Source: Aliirhizobium wenxiniae (GTDB taxonomy: Bacteria; Pseudomonadota; Alphaproteobacteria; Rhizobiales; Rhizobiaceae). From it: a stretch of DNA of 64,000 nt. Shown here one piece after another: positions 15,638-55,076 of the stretch (position 1 is its first letter; each line of letters begins with the position of its first letter). A program made the translations under genes and the position numbers. Location of the stretch: contig NZ_JACHEG010000002.1 in NCBI RefSeq assembly GCF_014201355.1, positions 930,001 through 994,000 of the forward strand. Direction: 5' to 3'. The notes beneath the pieces were generated by a model, which did not search any database, was not told the origin of the DNA, and saw only the letters and a list, made by a program, of their open reading frames with translations.

Positions 15638-15725
15638 TGCTCACCACCTCTGCGCGCAGCGGAGCCGACATTGCCCGCATTGATTAACGCAGTCTAAATT
15701 TTCGTGGCAAACAAAAGGTTAACCG

Positions 15726-16367
15726 TCAGGCGAAAGACGGCTTGGAAACTGAAGATTGAAGGCCGGAGGAGACGGGAGGCGTTTTAGCGAGCCGGCGAAG
15801 CCCCCTGCCCGCCAATACGACGAGCCCGATATCGGCGCCACGCAGACCACCCGCAATATGCTCATACACATGCGGGTCTGTCGCATCGACGATCACCAGA
15901 TCCAACCGGCCGGACAGGTTCGCGTCAGACGGGATGGCTACGAAATCGTGCCACGGGGTATGACGGGCGAAATGCGTGCAAAGCAACTCCGTGCGGCTCT
16001 TGTCATCGCCGATGATGCCGACACGGCGGGGTTCTGCAAAATAGGTAAGCAGAGCAGGAATAAAGCTATCGGGAGAAAACCTGGCGTCGAACGGCGGTTT
16101 ACGATGGAAAAACTTCATCAGAATGTGCTGAAAGGCCCCACCGACCGGCAGAAACATATGTCGCTTCAATATCTTGCCGCGAGCAAACCCTAACAGCGCG
16201 CCCAGGAGCTGTGCATCGTCGAGGAAGGCGATAGTTTTGGGATGCCCCTTTGCCAGAGCAAGCTCTTCCGCATGAGCCAGAGCCGCATTCCAATCCAGGG
16301 CCGATACCGGCAGACCGCAAAATGTACGGGATACAGGATCAGTTGAAGAATTCATGCTTTCGCTCAT
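15726..16367 (-). CDS. WecG/TagA-like glycosyltransferase homologue, probably divergent
   Basis: 213 residues with the general outline of the WecG/TagA/CpsF family: an N-terminal GLPVSALDWNAALAHAEEL, a central PVGGAFQHIL, and a Rossmann-like half with RRVGIIGDDKSRTELL and DLVIVDATDPHVYEHIAGGL. The family's usual early Asn/Asp-rich catalytic block is not evident, so catalysis is uncertain. It is divergent from the GT41 gene at 16676 and upstream of the Wzz-like gene (88-base gap, same direction), so the two may form a glycan operon. The start at 16367 could instead be the second Met at 16355. Confidence 0.5.
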   Translation of the reverse strand: MSESMNSSTDPVSRTFCGLPVSALDWNAALAHAEELALAKGHPKTIAFLDDAQLLGALLGFARGKILKRHMFLPVGGAFQHILMKFFHRKPPFDARFSPDSFIPALLTYFAEPRRVGIIGDDKSRTELLCTHFARHTPWHDFVAIPSDANLSGRLDLVIVDATDPHVYEHIAGGLRGADIGLVVLAGRGLRRLAKTPPVSSGLQSSVSKPSFA

Positions 16368-16675
16368 TACCGACTCGATCAGACAGCGTCACCTGTCCGA
16401 TCGTGTAACAGCGTGTCCTCAAGCGACATTTAAGTAAAAGGCTAAAATGCAACCGTTGCGTGATTATGCGGCATCACCCAGGTATCAGGTTAGCGCAGCG
16501 GCCAGACTTCTGTGAATCCGATGGGGACACATATTTGCGCAGCCTTGCCGATGGTTGATGCAAGGCGATAAGACCTCAGGGGTCGGCATGATGCCGGCGC
16601 ATGTCCAGGCAAGGCCGGCGACGATATTGCCTACATCATAAATTGCAGAACTTTATGGATGCCAAGGTCGACAAG
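16368..16675. other. Divergent intergenic region before the GT41 gene
   Basis: About 300 bases between the leftward WecG-like gene and the rightward GT41 gene. It must hold both promoters. It is less GC-rich than its surroundings near 16425-16470, but I could not assign a convincing -35/-10 pair or operator. Confidence 0.4.
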
Positions 16676-18703
16676 ATGAGCTTATCTCCCAACGCCCCGC
16701 TCGCCGAAATTCTGGAACTTGCGCGCACACAGCGGCTCGCCTTCACCGATCTCTTCACCGTTGCGGAAAGCCGAAGTGCGGCCGGACAGAAGGCAGAGGC
16801 CGCGGAAATCTACAAGGCCTGGATCGCCTTCAACGATGGCAATCCATTCCTGCATCTCGTCTATTTCAACTATTCGGTCACGCTCCGGCAATTGAACGAC
16901 CTTGCCGGTACGATCAACGCCTTGCGCGCCTGCCTTAAGCTCGATCCCGCTTTTGGTGCTGCCCACATCAATCTCGGTCGCGCGCTTGAAGACGGCGGTC
17001 TTGCCGTTCAGGCCATCCAGCAGTGGCAGACTTATACCGCGCTCACGGCCGAAAGCACTGCCGACCGGGTCAGCCACCGGCTGATGACGCTGCAGCATAT
17101 CGGCCGCGTGATGGAAAATGCCGGTCTTCTGGAGGAAGCCGAAACTGCACTGTGGCAGGCGATCGAACTGCGCCCCGACAAGCCGGAGGCCGGACAGCAC
17201 TGGAGCGCGCTTCGGCAGCGCCAATGCAAATGGCCGGTGCTGACACCATCGACCCATGCCACGCAGCGGCAGATGATCGATGCCATGTCGCCACTGACGC
17301 TTGCCTGCTATTCGGACGATCCGATGTTCCAGCTTGCCAAGGCCTATCGCTACAACAGGTCGCTGGTCGGGCGCGTCGAAACGAAGGAGCTGCAGCGCCG
17401 CACGCCGAAACAGAAGACCGGAACCGGCGAGCGCCTTCGGGTCGGTTACGTTTCCTCCGACCTGCGTGACCATGCAGTCGGCTTCGCGCTCCGGGAAGTG
17501 CTCGAACTGCACGACAAGGAAAGCGTCGAGATTTACGCCTATTATTGCGGCGATCCGGTATTGCGCGACGAAACGCAGACGCGGATGAAGGCGGCTGTCG
17601 ATTGCTGGCGCGATATCGCGACGATGAGCGATGCCGAGGCAGCGAAGCTGATCGGCGATGACGAGATCGACATCCTCGTCGACGTCAACGGTTACACCAA
17701 ACATGCGCGGACAAAGATCTTCGCCTATCGTCCGGCACCGGTGATCGTCAATTTCTGCGGTTATCCAGGCTCGATGGGCAGCCCGTTCCATCAATATATG
17801 ATCGCCGACGAGCATATCGTTCCGGCGGATAACGAGATCTATTATTCCGAAAAGGTCTTCCGCATCGCCTGCAACCAGCCGATCGACCGGAAGCGTGCCA
17901 TCGCGGACAAACCGACGCGCGCGGATGCCGGGCTGCCGAAGGACAAGTTCGTCTTCGCGTGCTTTAACGGCATGCAGAAGATCACCGAGACCACGTTCGG
18001 ACACTGGATGCAGATCCTGCGCGAGGCGCCGGATAGCGTGCTCTGGCTTTTGACCGGCGGCGACAAGGTCGATCAGCGGCTGCGCGAAAGTGCGGAGAAG
18101 GCCGGCATCACCAGCGACCGGATCATCTTTGCGCCCAAGGCGCCGAATGCGCAGCATCTGGCACGTATCGCCGTTGCCGACCTGTTCCTCGATACGTTTC
18201 CTTACGGCGCGCATTCCACCGGGGCCGATGCCCTGACGATGGGTCTACCCGTGCTGACATTCCCGGGCCGTAGCTTTGCAGCCCGTTTCTGCCACAGCAT
18301 CGTGCATGCCGCGGGCGTGCCCGAGCTGCTGTGCAGCGATCCGGAAAACTATGTGGCGAAGGCCATCGGTTATGCAAAGAACCCAGTCAGCCTGAAGGCA
18401 ATCCGGGACCAGCTTGCGGCACGACGCGAAAGCAGCGTACTTCGCGACATTCCCGGCCTCGCCCGCAGGCTGGAAGAGATCTTCTGGGAAATGCAGGGAG
18501 AGTGCGAACGCGGCGAGACACCGGTGCCGGACCTGCGAAACATGGAAATCTATTACGAGATCGGCGCAGATCTCGTTCAGGCCCATATCGAATACTGCGA
18601 CGATGGCGACTATCGGCGACATTATCGCGAAAGGCTTGCCGATTGGGACGACCAGTCGCCGATAGAGGCCGACAACCGTCTCTGGTCCAGTGCAGACCGA
18701 TAG
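16676..18703 (+). CDS. TPR-containing GT41 (O-GlcNAc-transferase-like) glycosyltransferase
   Basis: Predicted cytoplasmic protein O-glycosyltransferase of 675 residues. Residues 1 to about 200 are helical and TPR-like (LDPAFGAAHINLGRALEDGG). The C-terminal catalytic part has the GT41 blocks: RVGYVSSDLRDHAVGFALRE with the conserved His, DILVDVNGYTKHARTKIF, FACFNGMQKITETTFGHWM and LFLDTFPYGAHSTGADAL followed by LTMGLPVLTF. The start at 16676 has ccaagg upstream; ATG 16655 is in frame but lacks a site. It is convergent with the giant repeat gene and paralogous to the gene at 53148. The acceptor is unknown; flagellin or the giant protein are candidates. Confidence 0.88.
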   Translation: MSLSPNAPLAEILELARTQRLAFTDLFTVAESRSAAGQKAEAAEIYKAWIAFNDGNPFLHLVYFNYSVTLRQLNDLAGTINALRACLKLDPAFGAAHINLGRALEDGGLAVQAIQQWQTYTALTAESTADRVSHRLMTLQHIGRVMENAGLLEEAETALWQAIELRPDKPEAGQHWSALRQRQCKWPVLTPSTHATQRQMIDAMSPLTLACYSDDPMFQLAKAYRYNRSLVGRVETKELQRRTPKQKTGTGERLRVGYVSSDLRDHAVGFALREVLELHDKESVEIYAYYCGDPVLRDETQTRMKAAVDCWRDIATMSDAEAAKLIGDDEIDILVDVNGYTKHARTKIFAYRPAPVIVNFCGYPGSMGSPFHQYMIADEHIVPADNEIYYSEKVFRIACNQPIDRKRAIADKPTRADAGLPKDKFVFACFNGMQKITETTFGHWMQILREAPDSVLWLLTGGDKVDQRLRESAEKAGITSDRIIFAPKAPNAQHLARIAVADLFLDTFPYGAHSTGADALTMGLPVLTFPGRSFAARFCHSIVHAAGVPELLCSDPENYVAKAIGYAKNPVSLKAIRDQLAARRESSVLRDIPGLARRLEEIFWEMQGECERGETPVPDLRNMEIYYEIGADLVQAHIEYCDDGDYRRHYRERLADWDDQSPIEADNRLWSSADR

Positions 18704-18712
18704 AAAGAAACA

Positions 18713-18746
18713 AACCACCGCTCATTGAGAGCGGTGGTTCTCGTTT
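18713..18746 (+). terminator. Terminator after the GT41 gene
   Basis: 11-bp perfect stem, aaccaccgctc (18713-18723) and gagcggtggtt (18729-18739), loop of 5 bases, followed by ctcgttt. It lies 10 bases after the GT41 stop. It sits between convergent genes and could also terminate the leftward giant gene, which ends at 18771. Confidence 0.85.
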
Positions 18747-18770: not shown

Positions 18771-21700
18771 TTACGCTGCCAGATAAAGCGAGATAATCGC
18801 CGATACCTGTGCCGGGCTCAGTGCCGCCATGTGGGTTTCGATCAGCGTGTCACGCTGTGCGCTCGACATGGCCACGATGCTTTCCGTCGACAGGCCGGGA
18901 AGAGCGGCGCTGTTGAAGGCTGCAATATCCTCGGTCGAGAAAGTGGCCAATCCATCATTGGACAAAGCGGCAAGCTGAGACGAGGTCAGGGAGTTGACCT
19001 GGGTCGGGGTCAGGGCTTGCGCCTGCGCCGTGGTGAGCGACGAGATGACCGACGAGGTCAGACCGGAGATTGCCCCGGTGTTCAGCGCGGCAATCTCGCC
19101 CGTCGTGAAGACAGCGATATCATCAGTACCCAGCGCTGCTGCCTGCAGCGCGTTGAGCGCGCCGATTTGCGCTGTAGTCAGCTCTGCGACCTGGGCGGTG
19201 GAGAGAGCGACGATCTGATTGTAGTTCAGACCACCGACCTGGCTGGCGGAGAGTGCGCCGATCTGCTCCGTCGTCAGCGATGCGATGATCGCGGTGGACA
19301 GGCCCTTGATTGCCGCGGTGCCAATGGCTGCGAGATCCGCCGTCGAGAATGCGGCCATGTCCTCGGTGGTGAGGCCGGAAAGGCCTGCCGAGCTGAAGGC
19401 CGCAATCTGCGCCGTCGACAGCGAGTCGAGATGTTCTGCCGTCAATGCATCGACCTGGGCGCTGGTCAGACCGGAGATACCGGCGGTCCCGAGCGCTGCA
19501 AGTTCCTGCGTGGAAAGAGCCGCGATGAAGCTCGTCGACAGACCGGCAATCGCTGTGGACGAGATTGCGGCAAGCTTTTCGGTCGAGAAGGATTCCAGAT
19601 CCTCCACCGTCAGTCCCGATATGGCTGTCGATGTCAGCGCCGCGATCTGCGTCGTCGACAGCGCGGAAATCTGGTCCAGTGTCAATGCACTGGCCTGTCC
19701 GCTCGTCAGACCTGCGATGCCGGATGTGCTAAGTGCCGCGATCTGCGCCGTTGTCAGGGCCGCAATTTCGACAGTTGTCAGCACCGCCACCTGGCTCGAC
19801 GAGAGAACGCCGATCTGAGCCGTCGATAGGGTCTCGAGCTGGTTCAGGCTCAGTGCGGCGATCTGGCCGGTTGTGAGACCAGCGATGGCTGCCGTTCCGA
19901 GGGCCGCGATCTGCTCCGTCGTCAGCGCGGCAACGGTGCTGGTCGACAGACCCGAGATGGCCATAGAACTGATGGCTGCAATCTCGTCGGTCGTGAAGGT
20001 CGCAAGATCGTCAAGGCCGAGTGCGGATATCTGCCTGGAGTTGAGCGCTGCGATCTGGGTCGTCGTCAACGCTTCCGCCTGAACCGTCGTAAGCGCGGTA
20101 ATCTGGCTGCTGGTGAGACCGGCAATGCCCGCAGCGCTCAGATGCGCGATCTGTTCAGTCGAGAGCGCGGCAAGAACAGTGGTCGTCAATCCCGCCACGC
20201 CGCTGGAACTCAGGGCAGCAATATCGGCAGTCGAGAAGACTTCAAGGTCGTCGGTCCCGAAGGCCGCCACCTGGGCCGAGTTGAGTGCGCCGATCTGCGT
20301 CGACGTCAGGGCTTCGACCTGGCTGGTGGTAAGCGCCGCGATCTGGGCAGCCGTCAGCCCGGCAATACCGGCCGTGCCGAACGCTGCGATCTGATCGGTC
20401 GAAAGACCTGCGATTGCATCGGTACTGAGGACCGCGATCTGCTTGGAACCAAGCGCACCAAACTGGGCCGTTGTCAGGGCATCGATCTGCGCGTTGCTCA
20501 ACGCCGCAACCTGGCTGGTGGTAAGCTGGCCGATTGCGGCAGAACTCAGCGAAGCGATCTGCTCGCTCGAGAGTGCTGCAAGCACAGCGGTGGACAGGCC
20601 GGCAATGGCGCTTGAGCCTAGGACCGCAAGTTCTTTTGTCGAGAAGACTGCCAGATCGTCGGTGCCGAGGGCCGCGACCTGCGCCGAGGTCAGAACCGCG
20701 ACCTGCGTGCTCGTCAGTGCCTCGACCTGGCTGGTCGACATCGCATTCACCTGAGCCGAGGTCAGGCCGGCCAGGCCCGCCGTTGCCATGGCGGCGATCT
20801 GACCGGTGGAGAGCACCGATATGCCGGCCGCACCGAGCGCGCCGATCTGCCTTGATGACAGATGGCCGATCTGAGCGGTTGTGAGGGCCTCCAACTGTTT
20901 GCTGCCGAGAGCTGCCACCTGGGCGGTGGAAAGCGCTGCAATATTCGAGAAGCTGAGCGCCTCGATCCTGTCAGTCGATAGGGACGCAAGGACGTCTGTC
21001 GAGAGGCCGGCAATCGCGCTCGCGCTTAGCGAAGCAATCTCCCGGGTCGTGAAAAGGGCCAGGTCGTCACTGCCAAGCGCGGCGATCTGGTTGGAATTCA
21101 GGACCGCAATCTGTGAACTCGTCAGCGCTTCGGCCTGCGCGGTCGAAAGCGTGGCGATCTGCGCAGTCGAAAGGCCGGCGATGACTGCCGTGCTGAGAGC
21201 CGCGATCTCCTCCGTCGAGAGGGAGGCGATATAGCTGGTCCCCAGCGCTTCAAGCTGTTTCGAATTCAGTGCACTGACCTGACTGCTCGTCATTGCCGCA
21301 AGCTGCGTTGTCGAGAACGCGGCCATCTGGGTAGTCGAGAGACTGGTAATTGCAGCCGTGCTCAAGGCGGCAACGAGATCATTGGAGAGAGATGCAAGTG
21401 TCGTGGAGGACAATCCGGCGACGGCGCTAGAACTCAGGGCAGCGATTTCCCTGGTCGCAAACAGTGCAAGATCATCGGCGCCAAGTGCCGCGATCTGTTT
21501 GGAGGTCATTGAGGCCACCTGCGTGGCGGTCAGCGCTTCTGTCTGGACAGTCGTCAGCGCTTCTATCTGGCCCGAGGAAAGCCCCGAAATACCGGCGGTG
21601 CTCAAGGCTGCGATCTGGCCGGTCGTCAAAGCTGCAAGGTCGTCGCTCGACAGCGCTGCCGCCTGGTAAGAGCTCAAAGCTCCCATCTGACGGGTTGTCA

Positions 21701-24700
21701 GGGCGCCGATCTGGTCGGTGCTCAGCGTGGCAATCTGCCTGGTGGTGAGACCGGCGATAGCCGAAGTGCCGAGACCGGCGATCATTTCGGTCGACAGCGA
21801 TGCCAGCGTATCGGTCGACAGGCCTCCTATCGCAGTGGAGCTGATTGCCGAGAGGGCCGAGCTGGAGAGTGCTTCGAGATCGTCAGCACCAAGAGCCGCA
21901 ATTTGTTGTGACGTCAAAGCGCCGACCTGCTTGCTCGATAGGGCGGCGATCTGCCCCGTGCTGAGCGCAGCAACCTGCTTCGTCGTCAGCGAGGCGATCG
22001 CGCTGGTGGTCAAGGATGCAATCTGGCTCGTAGAGAGCGTTGCGATGACCGCCGTCGTCAGGCTGGAAATCGCATCCGTATGGATGGCTGCAACATCAGA
22101 CGTGGAGAAGGTCCGAATGTTTTCCGTTCCGATGACCGCGATCTGGGCGGAACTTAATGCCGCGACCTGAACGCTGGTCAAGGCTCCCGCCTGCGCAGTT
22201 GAGAGCGCCGCAACCTGTTTCGTCGTCAGACCCGAAATTCCCGCAGTGCTGAGCGACGAGACCTGGGCGGTGGACATGGCAGCGATGTCGTCCGTCCCGA
22301 GGGCCGCCGTCTGGGTGGCGCTCAGCGACGCAATCTGTTTCGTCGTCAGTGACGACACCTGGCTTGAGAGCAGAGCCGAGATCTGCCCTGTGGTCAAACC
22401 GGTAATGCCGCTGGCGCTGAGTGCCGCTATCTGGGCGGTAGACAAGGAAGCCAAGGCCGATGTCGATAATCCAGAGATGGCAGCAGAGCTGATTGCGGCC
22501 ATTTCCTTCGTCGAGAAGGTTGCGATATCGGCAGAATCGAGAACCTCAATCTGGTCGATACTCAGTACAGCAATCTGGGTGGCGGTCAGGGCATCGACCT
22601 GCGCCGTCGACAAGGCTGCGACTTGTCTTGTCGACAAACCGGTAACGCCAGCCGTGCTTAGAGCCGCGACCTGCGCCGTGGAGAGTGAGGCGATGTCATC
22701 GGTGCCGAAAGCTGCGATCTGCATCGAGCTCAGCGTCGACATCTGGAGAGTGGACAGAGCCGAGATTTGTGCGGCCGTCAGCGCTGCGATGTGATCTTCG
22801 CTCAGGCCCTTCATGCCAGCCGTGCTAAGCGCCGAAATCTGCGCGGAGCTGAAATGCCCGATTGCGGTCGCACTCAACGCCGCCACCTGTGCCGAGGTCA
22901 GGGCAGCGACCTGCTTGGTTGACAGGGCGCCGATCTGGGCCGAGCTAAGTGCTTCAATCTGGTCGCTCGTCAGATTGGCGATCGCCGTTACACCGAGCGC
23001 ACCGAGCTGATCGCTCGTCAATGACACAAGTGCGCTGCTGCTCAGGCCCGCGATCGCTTTCGCACCGATCGCCGCGATGTCGGCTGTCGAGAAGGTTGCG
23101 AGGTCCGCGGTGCTCAATGCTGCGAGCTGTGATGACTTCAGAACGCCTATCTGCAGCGTCGACAACGCATCGACTTGCGCCGTCGACAGAGCAGCGATCT
23201 GGTCCGTCGTCAGGCTGGCGATGCCCGCAGTACTGAGAGCGGCGACCTGGGCCGTAGAAAGGGCCGCGATCACGTCCGTGGACAAGGCGGCGACAGCACC
23301 GGTATTAAGTACGGAAAGCCGGGCTGCGGAGAAGGCAGCGATAGCCTCCGACGAAAGTGCGCCGACCTGGAGCGAAGTCAGAGCCGCAACTTGTGCCGTG
23401 GAAAGAGCTGCAAGCTGAAGCGAAGTCAGAGAAGCAATCTGATCGGTCGAAAGAGCGGCAAACGCAGCCGTGTTCAACGATGCAATCTGACCGCTGGAAA
23501 GCGATACCAGCGTTTCGGTCGGCAATGCGCCGATCTGCTTGGATGTCAGCGCCTTGATCTGTGTAGTGGTCAAAGCCGATGCCTGACCGCTGGACAATAC
23601 GCCGACCTGGGCAGTGGACATGGCGGCGACTGCCGCCGTACTCAGCGCGGCAATCTGCGCCGACGACAAGGCCGTGATCGTGCCGGTCGACAGGCCTGCG
23701 ATAGCGGCGGAGGTGATCGCCGCGAAGGACTTGGCAGACAGAGCAAGCAGGGTTTCCGTGTCGATCGCCCCGAGCTGCGAGGAAGACAAGGCGGCGATCT
23801 GAGCGGTGGTGAGTGCGGCAACCTTGTCTGCGCTCAAGGCAGCCATCTGTTCCGAACTCATCTTGGCGATGGCGACCGTCGTGAGGGCTGCAATCTGGGC
23901 CGTCGACAAGGCCTGCAGCGTAGCGGTGCTTATGCCTTGAATGACACCTGTCGTGAGTGCGGCTATTTCCGCGGTCGAGAACGTCGCCAGATCCTCTGGA
24001 TCCAGCGCCGCGACCTGGTCGGAGGTCAAGGCCTTTACCTGCGCCGTCGTGAGCGCTTCGGCCTGGACCACACTCAAAGCCGCAACCTGGGCAACGGTCA
24101 GTCGCGACACGGCACCGGCCGACAAGGCAGCAATCTGGGCTGTCGAAAAGACAGCGATGCCTTCCGATCCAAGCGAACCAATCTGCGAAGTTCTCAACGC
24201 GGCAACCTGTTCGGTCGTCAGCACCTTGACCTGCTTCGACGACAGGCCATCGAGCTGTTCCGTCGTCAATCCACTGACAGCACTTGCCGTCAGGGCAGCA
24301 ATCTGGTCGGTCGTAAGAGACGAGATAACGTTTGCCTTGAGGCCGGAAATCGCAGCGCTCGAGATCGCCGCCATGTCGTCGGTAGAGAATTTGGCAAGCT
24401 GCTGCGGCGTCAGCATTGCCAGTTGCGCGGACGTCATTACTTTTACTTGCGCCGACGTAAGTGCCTCGGCCTGCGCTACCGACAGAACTTCCAGCTGATC
24501 AGACGAGAGCTTTGCTACGGCGGCCACGCTCAAGGCTGCGACCTGCGCAGTCGACAGAGATGCCATGGCACTGGTGCTGAGGCCCGAAATGCTGCGGCTG
24601 GTCAGAGCCGCGATATTGGCGGTCGAGAAAGCAGCAAGATCTGCCGAATTGAGGACGGCAAGCTGGCCCGATGTCAGCACGGCGACCTGCAGGTTCGTCA

Positions 24701-26069
24701 GGGCCGCGATCTGGGCGGTGTTCAATGCGTCAAACTGATCCGTAGACAAAGCAGCCACGGCGCTGGTGCTCAGCGATGCGACCTGAGCGGGCGCCAGCGA
24801 TGCCATGACGGCGGTCGAGAGGCCGGCCACAGCCTTGTTGCTGAGTACCGCCATTTCGTCGGTAGAGAAGGTTGCAATATCATCCGCACCGAGAGCCGAT
24901 ACCTGATCCGATGACAGGACCCTGATCTGGGTCGAAGTCAGCGCCTGAACCTGGCTGGTGGAGAGTGCCGCAACCTGATCCGTCGTCAGACCGAGAATGG
25001 ACTTCGTGCCCAAGGCGGCAATCTGCGCTGTCGTCAGGCCTGCAATGTCACCCGTCGAAAAGGCAACGATCTGCGTTGCCTTGAACGCCGACATCTGCGC
25101 CGTCGTCAATGCTGCAATCTGCGTCGCCGAAAGCGCATTGATCTGGTCAGTGCTCAGACTGGAAACGCTTCCGGTGCTGAGGGAGGCAATCTGCATCGTT
25201 GTGAGGGCACCGACCATCGCGGTGCTAAGCGCCGCAACCTGCAGCACTTTCAACGCGCCAATCTGGGCTGACGTCAATGCCGCGACCTGAGCCGTAGAAA
25301 GTGCCGAGATCTGTGTCGATGTCAGGCTTGCAATGAGCGCCGTGTTGGCGGCAGCGAGCTGTGCCGATGAGAGGGCCGAGATCTGGGCCGACGACAGGCC
25401 GGGAGCTGCGCCGTTGCTGAGTGCTGCGACGCTTTCTGTCGACAGGACGGCGATATCGTTCGTTCCAAGAACGGCGACCTGTTGGGACTTGAGAGCGCCG
25501 ACCTGCGCCGTCGTCAAAGCCGCAACATGTCCGGTGGACAACGCCACGATCTGGTCGGTAGTCAGTCTGGAAATCGAGCCGGTGGAAAGCGAAGCAACCT
25601 GCGCCGTCGACAATGACGCCATGACTTCGGTTCTAAGGCCTCCGATCGCAGCCGGATTGATCGCCGCCATGTCTTCCGTCGAGAAGGTCGCAAGATCCGC
25701 CGGCGTCAAGGCCGCAAGCTGTGCGGTGGTCAATGAACCGACTTGCGACGACGTCAGTGCTTCGGCCTGATCCGTGGACAGCGCCAGCAGCTGCGCCGTG
25801 GTGAGCGCTGCAACCTGTCCTGTGCTCAAGCTTTCGATAGCGACCTTGCTGAGCACGGCAAGCTGGTCCATCGTCAGGCCGACGATCGCATTTGTCGCGA
25901 TGGCGCTCAACTGACGGGAATCCATCGTTTCGATGTCTTCCGTATCCATTGCCGAAATCTGTTCGGAAGAAAGGGCCTTGATCTGGGCCGTGGAGAGCGA
26001 CGCCACGTCCTCCGTCGTCCACGCTGCAACTGCCGCCGTCGAAAGCGACCTGATCTGGGTGACGCTGAG
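18771..26069 (-). repeat. 24-nt tandem coding repeat, 304 units
   Basis: The octapeptide units correspond to about 7.3 kb of 24-base tandem repeats, degenerate at the nucleotide level. Higher-order repeats of 240 and 168 bases correspond to the 10-octad and 7-octad modules. Counting from the N-terminus the units are 5, then modules of 10,10,10,7,7,10,10,10,7,10,10,7,10,10,7,7,10,7,10,10,7,10,7,10,7,10,7,10,10,7,10,10,7 and a final 8. The strict reading frame shows the array evolves by gain and loss of whole units. Confidence 0.9.
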
Positions 26070-26090
26070 CGAGGAAATGGTCGTAGTCAT
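18771..26090 (-). CDS. Giant octapeptide-repeat protein, 2439 residues
   Basis: I do not recognise a named family. After seven residues (MTTTISS) the whole protein is 304 consecutive octads with no insertion or deletion (7 + 304x8 = 2439), consensus L-[ST]-[ST]-x-[QD]-[IVL]-x-[AS]. Octads are grouped in modules of 10 or 7, each opening with an acidic octad such as LGTDDLAV followed by FSTxEIAA. It lacks Cys, has very few aromatic or basic residues, and is rich in Ser, Thr, Ala, Leu and Gln. There is no N-terminal signal peptide, no RTX nonapeptide and no recognisable anchor; the C-terminus IISLYLAA ends exactly on an octad. The S-x-x-Q pattern suits short capped helices, so a solenoid or fibre is likely. 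It lies between fliQ and a convergent GT41 gene. Confidence 0.85.
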   Translation of the reverse strand: MTTTISSLSVTQIRSLSTAAVAAWTTEDVASLSTAQIKALSSEQISAMDTEDIETMDSRQLSAIATNAIVGLTMDQLAVLSKVAIESLSTGQVAALTTAQLLALSTDQAEALTSSQVGSLTTAQLAALTPADLATFSTEDMAAINPAAIGGLRTEVMASLSTAQVASLSTGSISRLTTDQIVALSTGHVAALTTAQVGALKSQQVAVLGTNDIAVLSTESVAALSNGAAPGLSSAQISALSSAQLAAANTALIASLTSTQISALSTAQVAALTSAQIGALKVLQVAALSTAMVGALTTMQIASLSTGSVSSLSTDQINALSATQIAALTTAQMSAFKATQIVAFSTGDIAGLTTAQIAALGTKSILGLTTDQVAALSTSQVQALTSTQIRVLSSDQVSALGADDIATFSTDEMAVLSNKAVAGLSTAVMASLAPAQVASLSTSAVAALSTDQFDALNTAQIAALTNLQVAVLTSGQLAVLNSADLAAFSTANIAALTSRSISGLSTSAMASLSTAQVAALSVAAVAKLSSDQLEVLSVAQAEALTSAQVKVMTSAQLAMLTPQQLAKFSTDDMAAISSAAISGLKANVISSLTTDQIAALTASAVSGLTTEQLDGLSSKQVKVLTTEQVAALRTSQIGSLGSEGIAVFSTAQIAALSAGAVSRLTVAQVAALSVVQAEALTTAQVKALTSDQVAALDPEDLATFSTAEIAALTTGVIQGISTATLQALSTAQIAALTTVAIAKMSSEQMAALSADKVAALTTAQIAALSSSQLGAIDTETLLALSAKSFAAITSAAIAGLSTGTITALSSAQIAALSTAAVAAMSTAQVGVLSSGQASALTTTQIKALTSKQIGALPTETLVSLSSGQIASLNTAAFAALSTDQIASLTSLQLAALSTAQVAALTSLQVGALSSEAIAAFSAARLSVLNTGAVAALSTDVIAALSTAQVAALSTAGIASLTTDQIAALSTAQVDALSTLQIGVLKSSQLAALSTADLATFSTADIAAIGAKAIAGLSSSALVSLTSDQLGALGVTAIANLTSDQIEALSSAQIGALSTKQVAALTSAQVAALSATAIGHFSSAQISALSTAGMKGLSEDHIAALTAAQISALSTLQMSTLSSMQIAAFGTDDIASLSTAQVAALSTAGVTGLSTRQVAALSTAQVDALTATQIAVLSIDQIEVLDSADIATFSTKEMAAISSAAISGLSTSALASLSTAQIAALSASGITGLTTGQISALLSSQVSSLTTKQIASLSATQTAALGTDDIAAMSTAQVSSLSTAGISGLTTKQVAALSTAQAGALTSVQVAALSSAQIAVIGTENIRTFSTSDVAAIHTDAISSLTTAVIATLSTSQIASLTTSAIASLTTKQVAALSTGQIAALSSKQVGALTSQQIAALGADDLEALSSSALSAISSTAIGGLSTDTLASLSTEMIAGLGTSAIAGLTTRQIATLSTDQIGALTTRQMGALSSYQAAALSSDDLAALTTGQIAALSTAGISGLSSGQIEALTTVQTEALTATQVASMTSKQIAALGADDLALFATREIAALSSSAVAGLSSTTLASLSNDLVAALSTAAITSLSTTQMAAFSTTQLAAMTSSQVSALNSKQLEALGTSYIASLSTEEIAALSTAVIAGLSTAQIATLSTAQAEALTSSQIAVLNSNQIAALGSDDLALFTTREIASLSASAIAGLSTDVLASLSTDRIEALSFSNIAALSTAQVAALGSKQLEALTTAQIGHLSSRQIGALGAAGISVLSTGQIAAMATAGLAGLTSAQVNAMSTSQVEALTSTQVAVLTSAQVAALGTDDLAVFSTKELAVLGSSAIAGLSTAVLAALSSEQIASLSSAAIGQLTTSQVAALSNAQIDALTTAQFGALGSKQIAVLSTDAIAGLSTDQIAAFGTAGIAGLTAAQIAALTTSQVEALTSTQIGALNSAQVAAFGTDDLEVFSTADIAALSSSGVAGLTTTVLAALSTEQIAHLSAAGIAGLTSSQITALTTVQAEALTTTQIAALNSRQISALGLDDLATFTTDEIAAISSMAISGLSTSTVAALTTEQIAALGTAAIAGLTTGQIAALSLNQLETLSTAQIGVLSSSQVAVLTTVEIAALTTAQIAALSTSGIAGLTSGQASALTLDQISALSTTQIAALTSTAISGLTVEDLESFSTEKLAAISSTAIAGLSTSFIAALSTQELAALGTAGISGLTSAQVDALTAEHLDSLSTAQIAAFSSAGLSGLTTEDMAAFSTADLAAIGTAAIKGLSTAIIASLTTEQIGALSASQVGGLNYNQIVALSTAQVAELTTAQIGALNALQAAALGTDDIAVFTTGEIAALNTGAISGLTSSVISSLTTAQAQALTPTQVNSLTSSQLAALSNDGLATFSTEDIAAFNSAALPGLSTESIVAMSSAQRDTLIETHMAALSPAQVSAIISLYLAA

Positions 26091-26457: not shown

Positions 26458-26724
26458 TCAAAAACCGCTTTGTACGCGTGAGAAAACCAGATCCGCAAAC
26501 AAGGCAATCTGTGCGCCCATAAAAGATGCCGAAAGGCCGATAACGACCATGACGGCAACGATCTTGGGCACGAAGGTGAGCGTCATTTCCTGCACCTGTG
26601 TCAATGCCTGGATCAGTGCGATGGTCACGCCTACAATCATGCCGGCAAGAACAGCCGGTCCTGCAGCGACCAGGATCGTCCAGATGGCGTTGCGCATAAT
26701 ATCGAGCGCATCGGCCTCATTCAT
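26458..26724 (-). CDS. fliQ: Flagellar export gate protein FliQ
   Basis: Small inner-membrane component of the type III export gate, assembled with FliP and FliR. The 88 residues form two hydrophobic hairpins, GPAVLAGMIVGVTIALIQALTQ with the FliQ-typical TQVQEMTLTFVPKI, then a second segment. Length matches FliQ (about 89). It is last in the flgE-fliQ run, 86 bases after flgD. In the usual rhizobial order flhA would follow; here the giant repeat gene does. Confidence 0.94.
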   Translation of the reverse strand: MNEADALDIMRNAIWTILVAAGPAVLAGMIVGVTIALIQALTQVQEMTLTFVPKIVAVMVVIGLSASFMGAQIALFADLVFSRVQSGF

Positions 26725-26810: not shown

Positions 26811-27260
26811 TTAAGCGGAAGTTTCGGTTGTCGTCGTGGTTTTCGCAGTGGAGATCGTTATGCCCTCTCCGATGCTGATCTCTGCGCCATCCGTCGTCTT
26901 GGCAGTGAGACCGTCGGATGTGACCTCGACCGAGGCGACAACGCCTGTGGTCTTGCCATCTGCGCTGGTGATCGTCTTGCCGATATAGTTCGATGCGTTC
27001 GACAGGTTGGACTGGCTGATCAAGCTCTCCAAATTGGAGTTCGTCTTGATCGTCTGTTCAACCTGCGAAAATGTCGCAAGCTGCGAAACCTGCTCGGTCG
27101 CATCCATGGGATCAGTTGGATCCTGGTTCTGCATCTGCGTGATCAACAGCTTGAGAAAGCTGTTGTAATCAAGCGATGCCGCGGCCGCTGCGCTGGATGA
27201 GGCAGATGTCGAGGTGGACGCCGTCGATGTCGTCGACGTTGCGGAAGTGACCGTCACCAT
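26811..27260 (-). CDS. flgD: Hook-capping scaffold FlgD (short form)
   Basis: Caps the growing hook so that FlgE subunits can polymerise; exported and later replaced by FlgK. The 149 residues have a Ser/Thr/Ala-rich N-terminus and the FlgD core [24 protein letters not shown], then the [10 protein letters not shown] block. The C-terminal Ig-like and tudor domains of the about 230-residue enteric FlgD are mostly missing, as is common in rhizobia. Its ATG overlaps the flbT end by 7 bases. Confidence 0.93.
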
Positions 27261-27700
27261 AGCGCAATTTCCTTTCGCAGTTCCATAACGGCTGCGGGCG
27301 TGATCTCGTTCTTGTTGAGAATGGCTTCCTCGACCGGATAAAGAGCGCGGATGGCCTTAAGCGCGTCAAAGGGACGACCCGAAGATACCATGGTGTCGAT
27401 CCGCTTCAATTCAGCACGGACTTCCTCGTTCTGGAAGCAGGCCACCAGCATGGTAATCGACTTGCGGAAGAGCGCCATGGAATGCTCTTTGCCTTCCGGA
27501 TTGATCAGCATCATCTGGGCGATGAAATAAAGCTGCCGAAGTGGCGTCGTGGTCTGCTCGGGCTGAAGAACATGGTTTTCCAGCAAGAACGTCACGTCGT
27601 TGAGGAATTCGATCGAAACCTTCCGGTCCACCCGAAGGACGGCACCGTTGACGAAGATCTTTTCCCCGGATTTCAGCGAGAGGCGTAGCGTACTTTTCAT
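27254..27700 (-). CDS. flbT: Flagellin regulator FlbT
   Basis: Post-transcriptional regulator of flagellin; in Caulobacter FlbT acts on the 5' untranslated region of flagellin mRNA, and in Brucella and Sinorhizobium it affects flagellin output. The 148 residues begin [21 protein letters not shown], the family signature, with the helical second half ending [12 protein letters not shown]. It overlaps flaF by 4 bases (ATGA) and flgD by 7, so the three are translationally coupled. The shared leader element of the flagellin genes is a plausible target. Confidence 0.95.
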
Positions 27701-28044
27701 TTAAGTCCATCCCGAATGATGATGGTTATGTCGATGATACCCTGGTAGTTGGTGGACGTTCGTCGCCGAATGTTTTCCAACTCCTTCAGTATCCATATTG
27801 CGATCGATATTAGATTGGCTCTGACTTCCACACTAAGCTGATTGTCGGCGCTCCGCAGATCCTCGATCAACCTGATCCATACCCGTCTTGTGTAGTAGAC
27901 AGCTTCGATCGAATCCTTGTCGTATTTGGCGCTCTGCTTGGCCACTTCCAAAAGCTCGATCGATCTTGTCAGGATCTGGCGTTCTCGTTCGCGGGCGACA
28001 GTGAGATCATCCTCCATGATCTCCGCGTATGAAAACTGAAACAT
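27697..28044 (-). CDS. flaF: Flagellin secretion/regulation protein FlaF
   Basis: Small, mainly helical partner of FlbT; in Caulobacter FlaF is needed for flagellin production and secretion, with effects opposite to FlbT. The 115 residues include [18 protein letters not shown] and a C-terminal helix [15 protein letters not shown], typical of the family. It overlaps flbT by 4 bases and lies 48 bases after flgL. Confidence 0.93.
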
Positions 28045-28092: not shown

Positions 28093-29121
28093 CTAGAGAT
28101 AATCAGCGAGGCTCATGCCCAGGATTCGAGATGTGATCGAGTAAGAGGTTTCAACCTGGTTCAGCAGTGTCGACAACCGCACAGAGGCCTCCTCCGTATC
28201 CACACCCACCAAGCCCGTCAGCTGCGTATCGATGATCTTGATCTGGTTGCTCATATACGTGTTCGCTTTGTCGATACGCTCTTGCGACAAACCAAGTGCT
28301 GACTGCTGAGCAGTCACGCCGGAAATTGCGGTGCCGGCATATTGCGTTGCCTTCTGGCTAACCACGGACAAGGCTCCGCTCCCGAGGCCGGCGTTCGATA
28401 GCTGCGACGCTACCACAGAAGCGAGGACAAGGTTCTTGAAACCTTCGGAATTGGCGCTGGTTGATGTCGCTACGGTTTCCGAAGAACTTATGCGCGTCGT
28501 CATTACGGTGTCAGACGCGTTGGTCCAGGACGCCCAGTTGAAAGATGTCTCATAATCGGACAGAAACTGGGTCATCTGGCCGGCGGTCACATCACCGGCC
28601 GAAGCGATACCGTTTGCCGTTCTGAAGTTGGCGAACGCCGTATTGAAGTCATCCGTCACGTTGGCGATGAAATCATCGTCGAAAGTCTGCACATCCGTCG
28701 ATATGCCGGAAAAGAGGTATTCGCCGTTAACTGCAGTGTTCGCGTAGCTGACGAAATTCTCCAGCACCGACATCGCGCTGTCGGCGGAAACCTTGAGGCT
28801 GTTTACATCGGAATTGCCACTGAGCGCCGTCAAGGCATCCAGCAGTGTCTGCCCTGCATCCGAGATGTTGGTCAGCGCAAGCTGCGATCCTTCCATTCTC
28901 GTCTCGGCGAAGGAATTCGCATCGATAACCGACTGGAGGCGGCTGCTTTCCCGCGAATAATCCAGACTTGTCGAGGTACGGGTTCCAAGCTCCAGCCCGA
29001 CATCGGAATAGGTACCGGTAACCGCCTCATCCTGCAGCTTTGTAATCTCCGTCATCGCAGTGGAGACGGTCGATTGCATAGACTGACTAATGGCGAGAGA
29101 TGAGATAGACGTTGTTTTCAT
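28093..29121 (-). CDS. flgL: Hook-filament junction protein FlgL
   Basis: Hook-associated protein 3, joining FlgK to the filament. The 342 residues have flagellin-like helical ends: SSLAISQSMQSTVSTAMTEI at the N-terminus and YSITSRILGMSLADYL at the C-terminus, with a variable middle. It starts 2 bases after the flgK stop. Secreted through the flagellar type III apparatus, so no Sec signal is expected. Confidence 0.93.
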   Translation of the reverse strand: MKTTSISSLAISQSMQSTVSTAMTEITKLQDEAVTGTYSDVGLELGTRTSTSLDYSRESSRLQSVIDANSFAETRMEGSQLALTNISDAGQTLLDALTALSGNSDVNSLKVSADSAMSVLENFVSYANTAVNGEYLFSGISTDVQTFDDDFIANVTDDFNTAFANFRTANGIASAGDVTAGQMTQFLSDYETSFNWASWTNASDTVMTTRISSSETVATSTSANSEGFKNLVLASVVASQLSNAGLGSGALSVVSQKATQYAGTAISGVTAQQSALGLSQERIDKANTYMSNQIKIIDTQLTGLVGVDTEEASVRLSTLLNQVETSYSITSRILGMSLADYL

Positions 29122-30584: not shown

Positions 30585-31850
30585 TTAACGGGCGAGATTG
30601 ATGAGAACATCCATCAGGTCAGAGCCGGTCTGGAATACCTTGGAATTCGCCGTGTAGCTACGCTGCGATTCGATCATTTCCGTCAGTTCGCTTGCGAGGT
30701 CGACGTTGGACGTTTCCAAGGCTCCGGAAACGATCTCACCGAAGCCGGTGGTGCCGGCAAAGCCGATGGTGACAACACCCGAGTCCGCGGTCGGCTTATA
30801 TACGTTGCCCGAGAAGAGCTTGAGATTGTCCGGGCTCTGAACCGTCGCCATCGCAATCTGGTAGAGGGCTTTCGGATCGCTCTTGGCGTAGGTCGCGTAA
30901 ACCGTGCCATCCGAATCGATCTCGATGCCGGTCATAGACTCGGCCGGACTACCGTTGGCGCTACCCTTGGAGATTACCGAAGCGCTGGAAAGCTGGTTCA
31001 TGCCGGAAAGGTCGAAGTCAATGCCGCCAACGGTGATCGACAGCGGCGAGGTCGCGCCGTCAACGCTGACGAGACCTTTCGAATCAAACACCAGATCGGC
31101 GGTCACGGCCGTGCCGGAATACGGGAAGCTGCCGCTGCCGGTCGTGCTCTTATCGGCAGCATTGTAAACTGCGACTTCCCAAGAGTTATCGGCCGTCTTG
31201 GTGAAGTAGAAATCGTAAGTTACAGCTGCACCGTACTCGTCATAGGTCGTCACCGAGGTCTTCAGCATGCTGTCCATGTCGACATCGGTGGTAGCACCGT
31301 TATCGCTTGCCCAGCTGCCGGCAGCGACAGGATCCGCCGACTTGTTGAGGTTACCGGTCAGCGAACCATTGGTCGTGGCGACTGCCGTGATGCTCGAGTT
31401 GGAAGCCTTGACCGGCACCAGCCCGTCATAGGAATTGACGACAGTGGTCGGCGTGCCTCCATCGGCGTCGTAACCGAGAAGCATGTAGCCGGCATCGTTG
31501 ACGAGATAGCCGTTTTCATCGGGAGTAAACGAACCCGCACGCGTCAGGAAGATGTTTCCAGCGGTATCCTGAACGATGAAGAAACCTTCACCCTGGATCG
31601 CGAGATCAGATCCGGACGTGGTGTATTCCAAGGCACCCTGTTCCGAAACGGAGTAGGAAACCTTCGTCTCCACGCCGCCGGAGTTGTAGTTGCCGGAAGT
31701 TGACGGAAGAACCAGTGACGAAAACGAGGTCGAAGCGCCCTTGTAAGCTGTCGTGCTCGAGTTCGCGATATTGTCACCGACCGTCCCCAGGCGGTTAGCC
31801 TGAGCATTCATGCCCGAAACGGCGGTCTTCATGGTTCCAAAAATGCTCAT
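30585..31850 (-). CDS. flgE: Flagellar hook protein FlgE
   Basis: Main subunit of the hook, exported by the flagellar apparatus. The 421 residues start MSIFGTMKTAVSGMNAQANRLG, the conserved rod/hook N-terminus with the NIANSSTTAYKG motif, and end with SNVDLASELTEMIESQRSYTANSKVFQ. The start at 31850 is fixed by this family N-terminus. The longer open frame reaching 32333 is the antisense shadow of rem and the leader. The promoter must lie in the 217-base gap after the rem copy. Confidence 0.95.
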   Translation of the reverse strand: MSIFGTMKTAVSGMNAQANRLGTVGDNIANSSTTAYKGASTSFSSLVLPSTSGNYNSGGVETKVSYSVSEQGALEYTTSGSDLAIQGEGFFIVQDTAGNIFLTRAGSFTPDENGYLVNDAGYMLLGYDADGGTPTTVVNSYDGLVPVKASNSSITAVATTNGSLTGNLNKSADPVAAGSWASDNGATTDVDMDSMLKTSVTTYDEYGAAVTYDFYFTKTADNSWEVAVYNAADKSTTGSGSFPYSGTAVTADLVFDSKGLVSVDGATSPLSITVGGIDFDLSGMNQLSSASVISKGSANGSPAESMTGIEIDSDGTVYATYAKSDPKALYQIAMATVQSPDNLKLFSGNVYKPTADSGVVTIGFAGTTGFGEIVSGALETSNVDLASELTEMIESQRSYTANSKVFQTGSDLMDVLINLAR

Positions 31851-32028
31851 TTCGAATCCTCGCTGTGATAGTTGCTCCACATTAGGTGCCGGTCCTTGCG
31901 TGAAGCTGTCTGAAAAGGATGGGTGGGAAATTTGAAAAACATTTTTCGACGGCGGGATGCCAAACGGGTCGATGGAAAACCGGCAGTCGAAACAATCAGA
32001 AAAGGCCGGACAATCATTGCCGGCCGGA

Positions 32029-32060
32029 AAACAAAAAAGGGGCGATCCTGATCGCCCCTT
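32029..32060 (-). terminator. Terminator of the left rem copy
   Basis: 11-bp stem aaggggcgatc (32037-32047) and gatcgcccctt (32050-32060) directly after the rem stop. Read leftward it continues into TTTTTTGTTTT, a good rho-independent terminator. It is not shared with the other rem copy, whose duplicated block ends at its stop codon. Confidence 0.85.
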
Positions 32061-32065
32061 ACATT

Positions 32066-33069: not shown

Positions 33070-34227
<1,158 letters not shown>

Positions 34228-50369: not shown

Positions 50370-50400
50370 CTCAAATTGCCCCTTGGCTCACGGTTTGGAG

Positions 50401-50648: not shown

Positions 50649-50671
50649 TGTTATCCGAGAGTGGATTTTTT

Positions 50672-51556: not shown

Positions 51557-51588
51557 GAAAGTTGCCCCTTTGGCACTATGATTTGAAG

Positions 51589-53147: not shown

Positions 53148-55076
53148 ATGTTGACCGAGATCAGCTACAAGGCCGCGTCCCAGCATTTCCGCAGCGGCGA
53201 CTACACCTCCTCGCTCGTCACCATCAACAGGCTGCTCGAAGTTCAAAAGGACGCCCGTACCTACACGCTGCTCGCCCGCACGCTGAAGCAGCTCGGTCAC
53301 AAGGCGGAAGCCGCCCAGTCCTTCCAGTTGGCTGCCGAGCTCGGGGGGCAACATGCCGACGACAATCTGATCGATGCCATCAAGCTCAATTTCGAAATCG
53401 GAGAGAAGGACAAGGCACTGGCTCTGGCCAATCGCATCCTTCCAAAGCTGACCCGCGACCCAGAACTGGCTTTCATCGTCGCGTCAACTCTGGTCGAGAG
53501 AGGTGAAGCTCGTGTCGCCCGCGTGTTCAAAACCTTGCTCATCAGGAGTAAGGAGCTGCCGCATATGCTGCTCGGCGCCCGGATTTCGCTGAACACCTGG
53601 GATATGTTCGATCCGTCCGACATCGAGACCGCCCGTGTACTGCTCAGCCGAATTCCGAACAGCCAGCCGGTGCGGCTGATGTATCTCACCTTCAGCCGCG
53701 AACACAGCAAGTACGACGCGATAGAGCGCCATCAGCCGATCATCGACGCTGCAATTGCGTCAGGCGAGACGGACTTCGTCAGGATGGACGGCACCTTCTT
53801 CAACCTTCACTGGACCGGCGATGAGCATCTGAACCAGCTAGCTCGCAGCAACACGCCGAGATTTTCCCCGGAGATGACCGCAATCCGGCATCAAATGCCT
53901 CATACGTGGGGTGACAAGATTCGTGTCGGTTATCTCTCCTCCGACCTTTTCGACAAACATGCCACGATGAAGCTTATCCGCCGGGTGTTCGAATTGCATG
54001 ACAGGGATCGCTTCGAAGTGACCCTCTTTTGCCATACCGATCCGAAGATGCTGGCGGCCAATGAGGCAAACCGCGAAGAGTGGGGCAATGTCGTCACCGT
54101 GCGCGATATCAGCGATGAGGAGATCGTGGCCGAAATCAGGTCCCGCAATATCGACATCCTCGTCGACCTCAAGGGCCATACGATCGGCACTCGCAATACG
54201 GTCTTCAACATGCAGGCCGCACCGATCCAGGTCGCATGGCTGGGCTTCCCAGGCTCCACCGTCAACGTCGATCTCGACTATGCCGTCGGCGACAAATACG
54301 TTTTGCCGGATAGTTCGAAACCGCACTATTACGAGAAGTTCTGCCGCCTGCCGGAAACCTATCAGCCGAACGATCCTGTCAACAGGCCGCTTGCCAAGCC
54401 TATGACGCGCAAGGAAGTGGGCCTTCCCGAAGACGCCTTCATCTATGGGTCGTTCAACGCGAACCGCAAGATTACGCCGCAGATGCTGGATATGTGGGCA
54501 GATATCGTCAAGTCCACGCCGAACGGCATTCTCTGGATCCTGACCAACAATGCCGAAAGCAGGATAAACATACAGAAGAAGCTCGTCGCCGCCGGTGTTC
54601 CCGCCAAGCGCATCTTCTTCATGACCAAGATGCAGTTCGAGCACCATCTCAACCGCATCCCGCTCGCTGACCTTGGCCTCGACACCTATCCCGTTAACGG
54701 CCACACGACGACTTCTGAGATGCTCTGGGCCGGTCTGCCGGTCCTGACCTACAAAGGCACTAATTTCGCCTCGCGCGTCAGCGAGAGTCTGCTGCATGCA
54801 ATCGGGCTGCCCGAACTGATTGCGGAAGACGAGAACGACTATGTGCGGCTGGCCGTCGAGTTCGGCAAAAATCCCGAACAGCTCAAGCCTCTGCGGCAGC
54901 GCCTGGAAGACAATCGCCTGAAAAGCCCGCTTTTCGACGACGAACGCTTCACCCTGCATCTCGAAACCGCTTACGAGACGATGGTAGAGCGCGCCAAAAA
55001 CGGCTTGAAGCCCGATCATATCGATGTTGCGTGCCTACCGGCACGTAGCGGGCCTTTCATGGAAAAGCCCGACTGA
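53148..55076 (+). CDS. TPR-containing GT41 (O-GlcNAc-transferase-like) glycosyltransferase next to flagellins
   Basis: 642-residue predicted cytoplasmic protein O-glycosyltransferase, paralogue of the gene at 16676. Residues 1 to about 110 are TPR-like helices (SGDYTSSLVTINRLLEVQ; TLLARTLKQLGHKAEAAQSF). The GT41 blocks are RVGYLSSDLFDKHATMK with the conserved His, DILVDLKGHTIGTRNTVF, YGSFNANRKITPQMLDMW, GLDTYPVNGHTTTSEMLWAG and FASRVSESLLHAIGLPELI. A ggag lies close before the ATG. Divergence from the main flagellin gene makes flagellin the likeliest acceptor. Confidence 0.9.
   Translation: MLTEISYKAASQHFRSGDYTSSLVTINRLLEVQKDARTYTLLARTLKQLGHKAEAAQSFQLAAELGGQHADDNLIDAIKLNFEIGEKDKALALANRILPKLTRDPELAFIVASTLVERGEARVARVFKTLLIRSKELPHMLLGARISLNTWDMFDPSDIETARVLLSRIPNSQPVRLMYLTFSREHSKYDAIERHQPIIDAAIASGETDFVRMDGTFFNLHWTGDEHLNQLARSNTPRFSPEMTAIRHQMPHTWGDKIRVGYLSSDLFDKHATMKLIRRVFELHDRDRFEVTLFCHTDPKMLAANEANREEWGNVVTVRDISDEEIVAEIRSRNIDILVDLKGHTIGTRNTVFNMQAAPIQVAWLGFPGSTVNVDLDYAVGDKYVLPDSSKPHYYEKFCRLPETYQPNDPVNRPLAKPMTRKEVGLPEDAFIYGSFNANRKITPQMLDMWADIVKSTPNGILWILTNNAESRINIQKKLVAAGVPAKRIFFMTKMQFEHHLNRIPLADLGLDTYPVNGHTTTSEMLWAGLPVLTYKGTNFASRVSESLLHAIGLPELIAEDENDYVRLAVEFGKNPEQLKPLRQRLEDNRLKSPLFDDERFTLHLETAYETMVERAKNGLKPDHIDVACLPARSGPFMEKPD

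Follow-up and report, generated by a model that had tools for sequence, protein, structure and literature searches.

We report that a 64,000-nucleotide stretch of the Aliirhizobium wenxiniae genome (contig NZ_JACHEG010000002.1, positions 930,001 to 994,000; the window, by whose own numbering features are located below) encodes a 2439-residue repeat protein, here termed ALT, that is probably a leaderless, exported and O-glycosylated alpha-superhelical scaffold, decorated by the O-glycosyltransferase (OGT) encoded beside it, a reading to which we assign a probability of roughly 0.6. The evidence is computational and comprises the strict octad organisation of ALT, its predicted fold, a rotation of octad types along the repeat, the pairing of its gene with that of a GT41-family enzyme (GT41a), and a correlation between the presence of GT41 enzymes and hydroxyl residues at octad position 3. 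G and L numbers, and f47 for one family, are working labels.

The octad array

18771..26090, minus strand: ALT (ALTTAQ repeat protein), 2439 residues, 7 + 304 octads, no cysteine
26046..26090, minus strand: the ALT start, seven leading residues and first octad
18774..18863, minus strand: ALT C-terminal cap, a conserved tail with two longer helices predicted

ALT is encoded on the minus strand by a single open reading frame (ORF), which starts with ATG at 26090 and runs down to 18771. An original prediction, made from the letters of the window, had divided the translation into seven leading residues and 304 octads without a slip, and the present parse agrees, 304 of 304 units being eight residues long with none short or long; the strand, the rotation of 3.39 octads, the GT41 partner and the flagellar and type I secretion links were absent from it. 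Position 1 is L in 248 of the 304 octads, position 3 is S or T in 248, position 5 is Q in 162 and position 6 is I, V or L in 270, while position 2 is chiefly S or T (243), then G, N and D. The consensus is L-S/T-T/S-x-Q-I/V-A-A, and serine and threonine together make up 27% of the protein. Coding on the plus strand over the same span was rejected on account of the many stops in that translation, and the long plus-strand ORFs found there are read as shadows of the repeat.

The strict phasing claimed earlier extends to relatives within the genus. A frame of exactly 2439 residues is found in six genus genomes including the present one, the other five frames being 69-96% identical to ALT, and 23 of the 35 genus ALT frames with at least 100 octads (window ALT among them) parse without a break. 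The remaining 12 show 28 breaks in a total of 8276 octads, of which 16 are 7-residue gaps and two are 8-residue gaps that preserve the phase. Frequent units of seven or nine residues, named in the original prediction as a sign against it, are thus lacking in ALT and rare in its relatives, with the exception of G005_13546 (L060, from about 13546). In that frame a 7-residue gap recurs every ~17 units (runs of 19, 16, 16, 16, 16, 16 and 20), and so represents a fixed irregularity, one per superrepeat.

Both ends of the array are conserved. The start MT(S/T)..SL..QI(R/K) is common to many Rhizobium relatives, and 34 of the 38 genus frames that reach 80 octads carry the tail [IV][IVLAM]xxY, a pattern with 9 internal matches in 8547 octads. 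A flagellin-like N-terminus was considered, as an MTSI start is frequent among relatives and two flagellins of the window begin MTSILTN; distant relatives start otherwise, and no claim is made. The one exact length in six genomes could also bring to mind a flagellar length ruler or tape measure. This seems very improbable, as relatives with unbroken arrays have open frames of anywhere between 1143 and 2503 residues (931 in the fragmentary G049), and the window already encodes the hook-length protein FliK at 43324-44790.

Repeat family and predicted fold

The original prediction knew of no described fold with this unit, a statement that no longer stands, since the repeat is named in Pfam and one solved chain carries the octad in register. 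ALT matches PF20080 (ALTTAQ_rpt) with 1383.1 bits (cut-off 26.4) in 104 stretches; this family, known here by its name and scores, shares the octad repeat of ALT in a model of 38 positions, and the rotation and the GT41 partner described below are new from the present analysis. PDB chain 9zem, 'HeliScrew4' (120 residues), aligns with ALT for 108 residues ungapped (E 1e-16), its octads in register with those of ALT. It differs in being short, and 11 of the 13 aligned octads read have proline as their third residue instead of Ser/Thr; we read its name as that of a designed protein, and it was not among the fold-search matches to the ALT models. A profile match to a known family, a second sign that the original prediction had named against itself, therefore exists, but a characterisation of that family was not found: the open-access literature yielded no paper naming the ALTTAQ repeat, PF20080 or 9zem/HeliScrew4, and no function, and searches on octapeptide solenoids or octad repeats returned prion papers or nothing.

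Two 384-residue parts of ALT were modelled with AlphaFold. The first part, for which the input consisted of 27 in-phase segments (mean predicted local distance difference test score, pLDDT, 94.5), has about one helix per octad, mostly of 4-6 residues, and the C-terminal 384 residues (pLDDT 95.5) have similar short helices with two longer ones at the end. Neither model contains a beta strand. The octads are thus predicted to form an alpha-solenoid, the continuous solenoid of very short helices that had been proposed, and the beta-solenoid proposed beside it can be set aside on these models. Helix onset falls at octad position 3, which places the N-cap at position 2 and the residue at position 5, mostly Q, three residues on, so that the S-x-x-Q capping box noticed earlier is borne out in the model.

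Structure searches with the ALT models gave middling scores to the superhelices of mesothelin/stereocilin and to armadillo (ARM) solenoids, a likeness that may amount to a common arrangement only; ARM/HEAT repeats are about 50 residues long (PMC2628672), as opposed to eight in ALT. In a search of BFVD, the template modelling (TM) score to the query was at most 0.27 among the 50 matches listed, too low to be informative.

Several other resemblances were considered. Seven further Pfam families match ALT weakly (best Sigma70_r4_2, 5.6e-12) and were rejected, as no single stretch passes alone, and leucine-rich repeat chains in PDB searches were read as chance resemblance among Leu-rich repeats. 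The annotated names of Cereibacter plasmid relatives, and these only, would suggest an ice-nucleation or haem-utilisation exoprotein. The NCBIfam scan of ALT listed no family of either kind, and the ALT octad is predicted to be helical, in contrast to the repeats of ice-nucleation proteins, for which the models are beta-solenoids; we give this suggestion almost no credence. Relatives in phages were confined to Mycobacterium phage Squirty (one phage, two records; 27% identity) and PHROG 15773. A weak ALT-like match (25% identity) was also seen in CP117533.1, an 18.9 kb plasmid of the Spiroplasma endosymbiont of Drosophila atripex.

Rotation of octad types

When residue types at each octad position were Fourier-transformed against octad number, ALT gave peaks at 0.295, 0.41, 0.115 and 0.18 per octad, which, once folding into the sampled range is allowed for, are harmonics 1-4 of a single 3.39-octad rotation. 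Summed over the harmonics, the score is 2.92, against a best value of 0.66 across 100 shuffles. Of the 35 genus frames of 100 octads or more (window ALT included), 33 have a period of 3.38-3.42 octads, and the two outliers, with periods of 2.285 and 2.15, both have repeated breaks that upset the octad count. From the sequence we infer a superhelix, in which some 300 very short helices would be wound into a thin alpha-superhelix of about 3.39 octads (27 residues) per turn and about 90 turns.

Self-similarity along ALT is strongest at a lag of 17 octads, or five turns, followed by lags of 78, 61, 10, 27, 34 and 44, all of them near whole turns. The rotation signal may alternatively be a purely historical trace of tandem duplication of 17 octads. 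Homogeneous relatives do show frequencies of 1/17 and 4/17 too, and diverged ones, including window ALT, are dominated by the 0.295 series (5/17 = 0.294); we take the 17-octad duplications to fit whole turns. The rotation of 3.39 octads is a prediction that can be checked against any structure of the octad repeat.

A paired O-glycosyltransferase

16601..18703, plus strand: GT41a, O-glycosyltransferase with TPR and Glyco_transf_41 domains, converging on ALT
18712..18740, both strands: terminator-like hairpin (consensus match only) between the converging ALT and GT41a

GT41a is a protein of 700 residues with a Glyco_transf_41 domain (242.4 bits, cut-off 25) and a TPR_14 match (29.3 bits, cut-off 23.5). 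It aligns with the bacterial OGT XcOGT at 8e-79 across residues 139-619, the catalytic region, and a histidine near the start of the domain and a lysine of the nucleotide site align with identical residues in solved OGTs.

The pairing with ALT was followed in 57 genomes of the genus, of which 29 are ALT-rich (at least 62 ALTTAQ matches). A GT41a match, defined as one above 500 bits, is present in 29 of 29 ALT-rich genomes and in 0 of the 28 others (Fisher 7e-17, without tree correction; neither this nor the glf count given further below is corrected for descent). The match is split into two pieces in G049 and G040. The distance between the two genes is 43-896 bp in 27 of these 29 genomes, and ALT is located elsewhere in G039 and G049. 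Three weak PF20080 matches in G009 proved to be a Gly-rich LSTSQYGG repeat and were rejected as ALT.

On the other side of GT41a, two ORFs at 13925-16367 (570 and 213 residues) match no Pfam or NCBIfam family and are fast-diverging; the 213-residue product shows 40-57% identity across five close genomes (95% in G003), where the figure for GT41a is 84-94%.

ALT and GT41 beyond the genus

A phylum draw of 398 genomes was also searched; its match counts are lower bounds, as no more than 18 PF20080 and 3 PF13844 candidates were scored per genome, and a genome without GT41 is one with no match at the threshold of that search. ALTTAQ matches occur in 28 of the 398 genomes, and 18 of these have at least 20. 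GT41 is present in 17 of these 18 ALT-rich genomes, compared with 133 of 398 overall, and 14 of the 18 belong to f47; the ten genomes with few ALTTAQ matches include two with GT41, both from f47.

Adjacent ALT-GT41 pairs occur in G406 (GT41 105 bp past ALT), G427, Riflebacteria, Rhizobium L101 and L103, Rhizobium daejeonense and a Pseudomonas plasmid. GT41 lies within about 10 kb of ALT on the same contig in the f47 genomes G090, G101 and G133 and on a Pseudoroseomonas plasmid, where ALT is in pieces, and a partial GT41 match is found 1.1 kb from ALT in Cereibacter. The f47 genomes G161, G121 and G173 each contain several giant ALT frames, of up to 5692 (G161) and 6436 (G173) residues, and several GT41 matches, some of them inside frames of 2000-3800 residues.

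Hydroxyl residues at octad position 3

If GT41 enzymes modify the hydroxyls of the octad, ALT octads from genomes without GT41 should lack such hydroxyls. The profile used to locate octads ignored positions 2-4, and the lineage values outside the genus rest on one to five proteins each. The Ser/Thr fraction at position 3 is 0.31-0.96 in seven GT41-positive lineages and 0.00-0.25 in five negative ones, with no overlap (exact one-sided p 0.0013). Position 2 served as the control: its Ser/Thr fraction is about 0.5-1.0 in all lineages compared (two-sided p 0.64).

Among the positive lineages, the 29 genus genomes have a median of 0.75 (0.38-0.96), and values are 0.79 in G427 (N-terminal 81 octads), 0.80 in Riflebacteria, 0.96 in Pelomonas, 0.72 in Duganella and about 0.76 in f47, the last being the mean of G133, G090, G101, G161 and G173 (a second G161 locus, at 0.53, was left out, f47 lying far above 0.25 regardless). 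The GT41-negative values are 0.25 in G447; 0.04, 0.10 and 0.13 in G250, G253 and G329, of one genus; 0.00 in G112 (six octads only); 0.05 in G287; and 0.16 in G314. In G250, G253, G329 and G112, roughly half of the octads or more have proline instead of Ser/Thr at position 3. G009 (not ALT) and G188 and G244 (no octad run) were left out of the test, and G201 and G245 (f47, few matches) stand outside the analysis. Further values from outside the test are 0.81 in L101, 0.74 in L104 and 0.72 in L105, and those read after it are 0.78 in R. daejeonense, 0.82 in Pseudomonas, 0.88 in Pseudoroseomonas, 0.96 in Cereibacter, 0.78 in Sinorhizobium BG8, 0.52 twice in Shinella and 0.45 in Thioclava.

Retention of the hydroxyls was compared across the six frames of identical length. 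Of the 243 position-3 columns in which a hydroxyl prevails, 77% keep it in all six; the corresponding figures are 33% (51 columns) for position 4, 37% (35 columns) for position 7, 61% (49 columns) for position 8 and 85% (243 columns) for the N-cap, position 2.

These results bear on whether ALT might instead be a cytoplasmic scaffold that is never exported, the proximity of GT41 reflecting hitch-hiking. No signal peptide is seen in ALT by eye, as such a scaffold would lead one to expect. The recurrent pairing with GT41 and type I genes across classes and in a second phylum, together with the correlation at position 3, makes this account unlikely. The same correlation renders the glycosylation claim directly testable on one protein.

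Flagellar and type I secretion neighbourhoods

26458..26724, minus strand: fliQ, a flagellar export gene, the first one upstream of ALT
26811..27260, minus strand: flgD, upstream of ALT
27254..28044, minus strand: flbT and flaF, upstream of ALT
28093..29121, minus strand: protein with flagellin N- and C-terminal domains

Flagellar matches occur in 17 of 27 genus stretches, in three distinct arrangements. In seven genomes ALT lies 640-811 bp from flgD; in five, a DUF1217 gene is less than 2 kb away, with weak flgG- and flagellin-like matches (29-36% identity) 5-9 kb off; and in another five a flagellin gene is found 555 to 5048 bp from ALT. The association recurs in Riflebacteria, where the row consists of a flagellin gene (Pfam), a second frame with flagellin-like ends, ALT and GT41, and in Duganella, where ALT lies between fliK/fliP and genes for a flagellin-domain protein, flgI and flgG.

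It is possible, although we do not think it the better bet, that ALT is a flagellar component, exported by the type III route, that coats, sheathes or tethers the filament, GT41a acting on ALT as FlmG acts on flagellins. This is a narrower form of the glycosylated-scaffold reading and is compatible with it. Same-strand flgD and fliQ precede ALT in the window, the three settings and the two distant recurrences point the same way, and there is a precedent in FlmG of Caulobacter, a TPR plus GT-B enzyme required for cytoplasmic O-glycosylation of flagellin (PMC7591256). FlmG resembles GT41a in architecture and in serving substrates of flagellar export, and differs in acting on flagellins. In the phylum draw, every one of the 18 ALT-rich genomes carries a flagellin, which is weak evidence given a background of 330 of 398 (83%). 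Other lineages have type I genes instead, and octads begin at residue 8, which leaves no room for a long disordered N-terminal signal.

Those type I genes lie beside ALT or the ALT-GT41 pair. They encode TolC, HlyD and ABC components in G427 and HlyD and ABC components in the f47 genomes G101 and G090; in G133, HlyD is identified by Pfam, and the ABC match rests on tblastn, one ORF taken for the ABC gene having given no family. Type I genes are also annotated on the Pseudomonas and Pseudoroseomonas ALT plasmids.

A proposed glycoprotein system and the evidence against it

Glycosylation, export, the nature of the sugar and the place of action are what we infer from these results. In the proposed scheme, cytoplasmic GT41a would O-glycosylate ALT ahead of export, chiefly at the Ser/Thr of octad position 3, the first helical residue, with up to about 250 sugar sites per molecule. 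In several lineages export would proceed through the linked type I system, and in the rhizobial clade through either the flagellar apparatus or an unlinked type I system. Outside the cell, ALT may form a long sugar-coated rod, or a coat on the surface or flagellum. We would go further only tentatively, with the odds somewhat against us, in suggesting a glycoprotein system shared by two phyla, in which a dedicated OGT decorates most octads (~250 sites) of a leaderless superhelix that is self-similar in whole turns, the product serving the flagellum in rhizobia and Riflebacteria and being exported by type I systems elsewhere, with a lineage-specific sugar.

A number of observations weigh against the scheme. 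The chief weakness is that the GT41-negative octad runs, except that of G447, are short (6-43 octads) and lie within other kinds of protein, so that architecture rather than the absence of GT41 could explain them. Moreover, the hypothesis arose from G447 and G250, both of which are in the test; G253, G329, G112, G287 and G314 were read later. In G406 the position-3 fraction is just 0.36 in the GT41-linked ALT and 0.22 in the other, with position 4 at 0.77 and 0.54, and in G041 position 3 reaches 0.38. G447 is ALT-rich, and a GT41 match is absent genome-wide at the threshold of the phylum draw. Adjacent GT41 genes are missing in Duganella, Pelomonas, L104 and L105, though GT41 is found elsewhere in those genomes, and no GT41 was seen within the stretches fetched around ALT in Shinella, Sinorhizobium BG8 and Thioclava. 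With regard to export, flagellar genes were not seen in 10 of the 27 genus stretches, which counts equally against a flagellar component, and a three-query search of the window and the Rhizobium stretches found no HlyD or TolC, just ATPase-domain matches of 56-89 bits.

If the proposed system is real, it would provide a function for a named repeat, PF20080, for which none was found, and would suggest a purpose for some of the unexplained bacterial TPR-GT41 enzymes. ALT would also be a substrate with hundreds of near-equivalent acceptor sites on a predictable rod, which would help in studying how OGTs choose among Ser/Thr residues.

Candidate sugars

33070..34218, minus strand: glf, UDP-galactopyranose mutase, in the same window as ALT

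Eight genus genomes have a relative of glf at most 2.3 kb from ALT, G039 and G049 have one beside GT41a, and in Rhizobium L101 and L103 glf is third in a row with the ALT-GT41 pair. Genes of the window type are found in 18 of 29 ALT-rich genus genomes compared with 2 of 28 others; at a loose threshold, glf of any type is found in 28 of 29 and 9 of 28, respectively, many of these being distant paralogues. A literature search on galactofuranose on rhizobial flagella found nothing usable. Judged by the linked genes, the sugar on ALT would differ by lineage, with glf in rhizobia, GDP-mannose dehydratase in Pseudomonas and UDP-glucuronate decarboxylase in Pseudoroseomonas.

Comparison with known glycoprotein systems

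53148..55076, plus strand: GT41b, second TPR-GT41-type enzyme, of a type that genomes lacking ALT also carry

In a GT41 tree built without G043, G049 and G040 (the last two having split genes), GT41a stands apart from GT41b, and the joining point of the distant ALT-linked enzymes, which lie on long branches, is unsure. Of the two, GT41b would be the likelier counterpart of FlmG.

Serine-rich repeat proteins (SRRPs) resemble the proposed ALT system in that a large Ser-rich repeat protein is glycosylated intracellularly and has dedicated export. SRRPs belong to Gram-positive bacteria and differ from ALT in using accessory Sec and in having non-helical repeats; their transferases are also of other kinds. 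SRRP-type families were not among the Pfam matches of the window ORFs scanned, although they were not sought by name. A second parallel involves HMW1C, which is of the GT41 type. With the HMW1 adhesin it exemplifies a cytoplasmic transferase devoted to a single large exoprotein (PMC3012730). HMW1 differs from ALT in its N-linked sugar and two-partner secretion, and GT41a scores 23.3 bits, far below the cut-off of 1000, on the NCBIfam model NF049992 for protein N-glucosyltransferases of the HMW1C type.

Other features of the flagellar cluster

The flagellar cluster of the window also encodes a 758-residue DUF1217 protein (39474-41750), and five genus genomes have relatives of it less than 2 kb from ALT. 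A response regulator gene (receiver and Trans_reg_C domains) is present twice, at 32068-32739 and 41856-42527, 9.8 kb apart and with identical Pfam scores. The copies are 99% alike across the 300 nt compared, and G056 has two matches at 100% identity, which suggests gene conversion. The flgE ORF (30585-32333) is probably over-long at its start, given its overlap with the regulator gene and a rod domain that starts at residue 168. Three tandem flagellin genes (49488-52786), about 1.2 kb apart and 76-89% alike in the stretches compared, are accompanied by an additional flagellin-like gene at 48223-49188.

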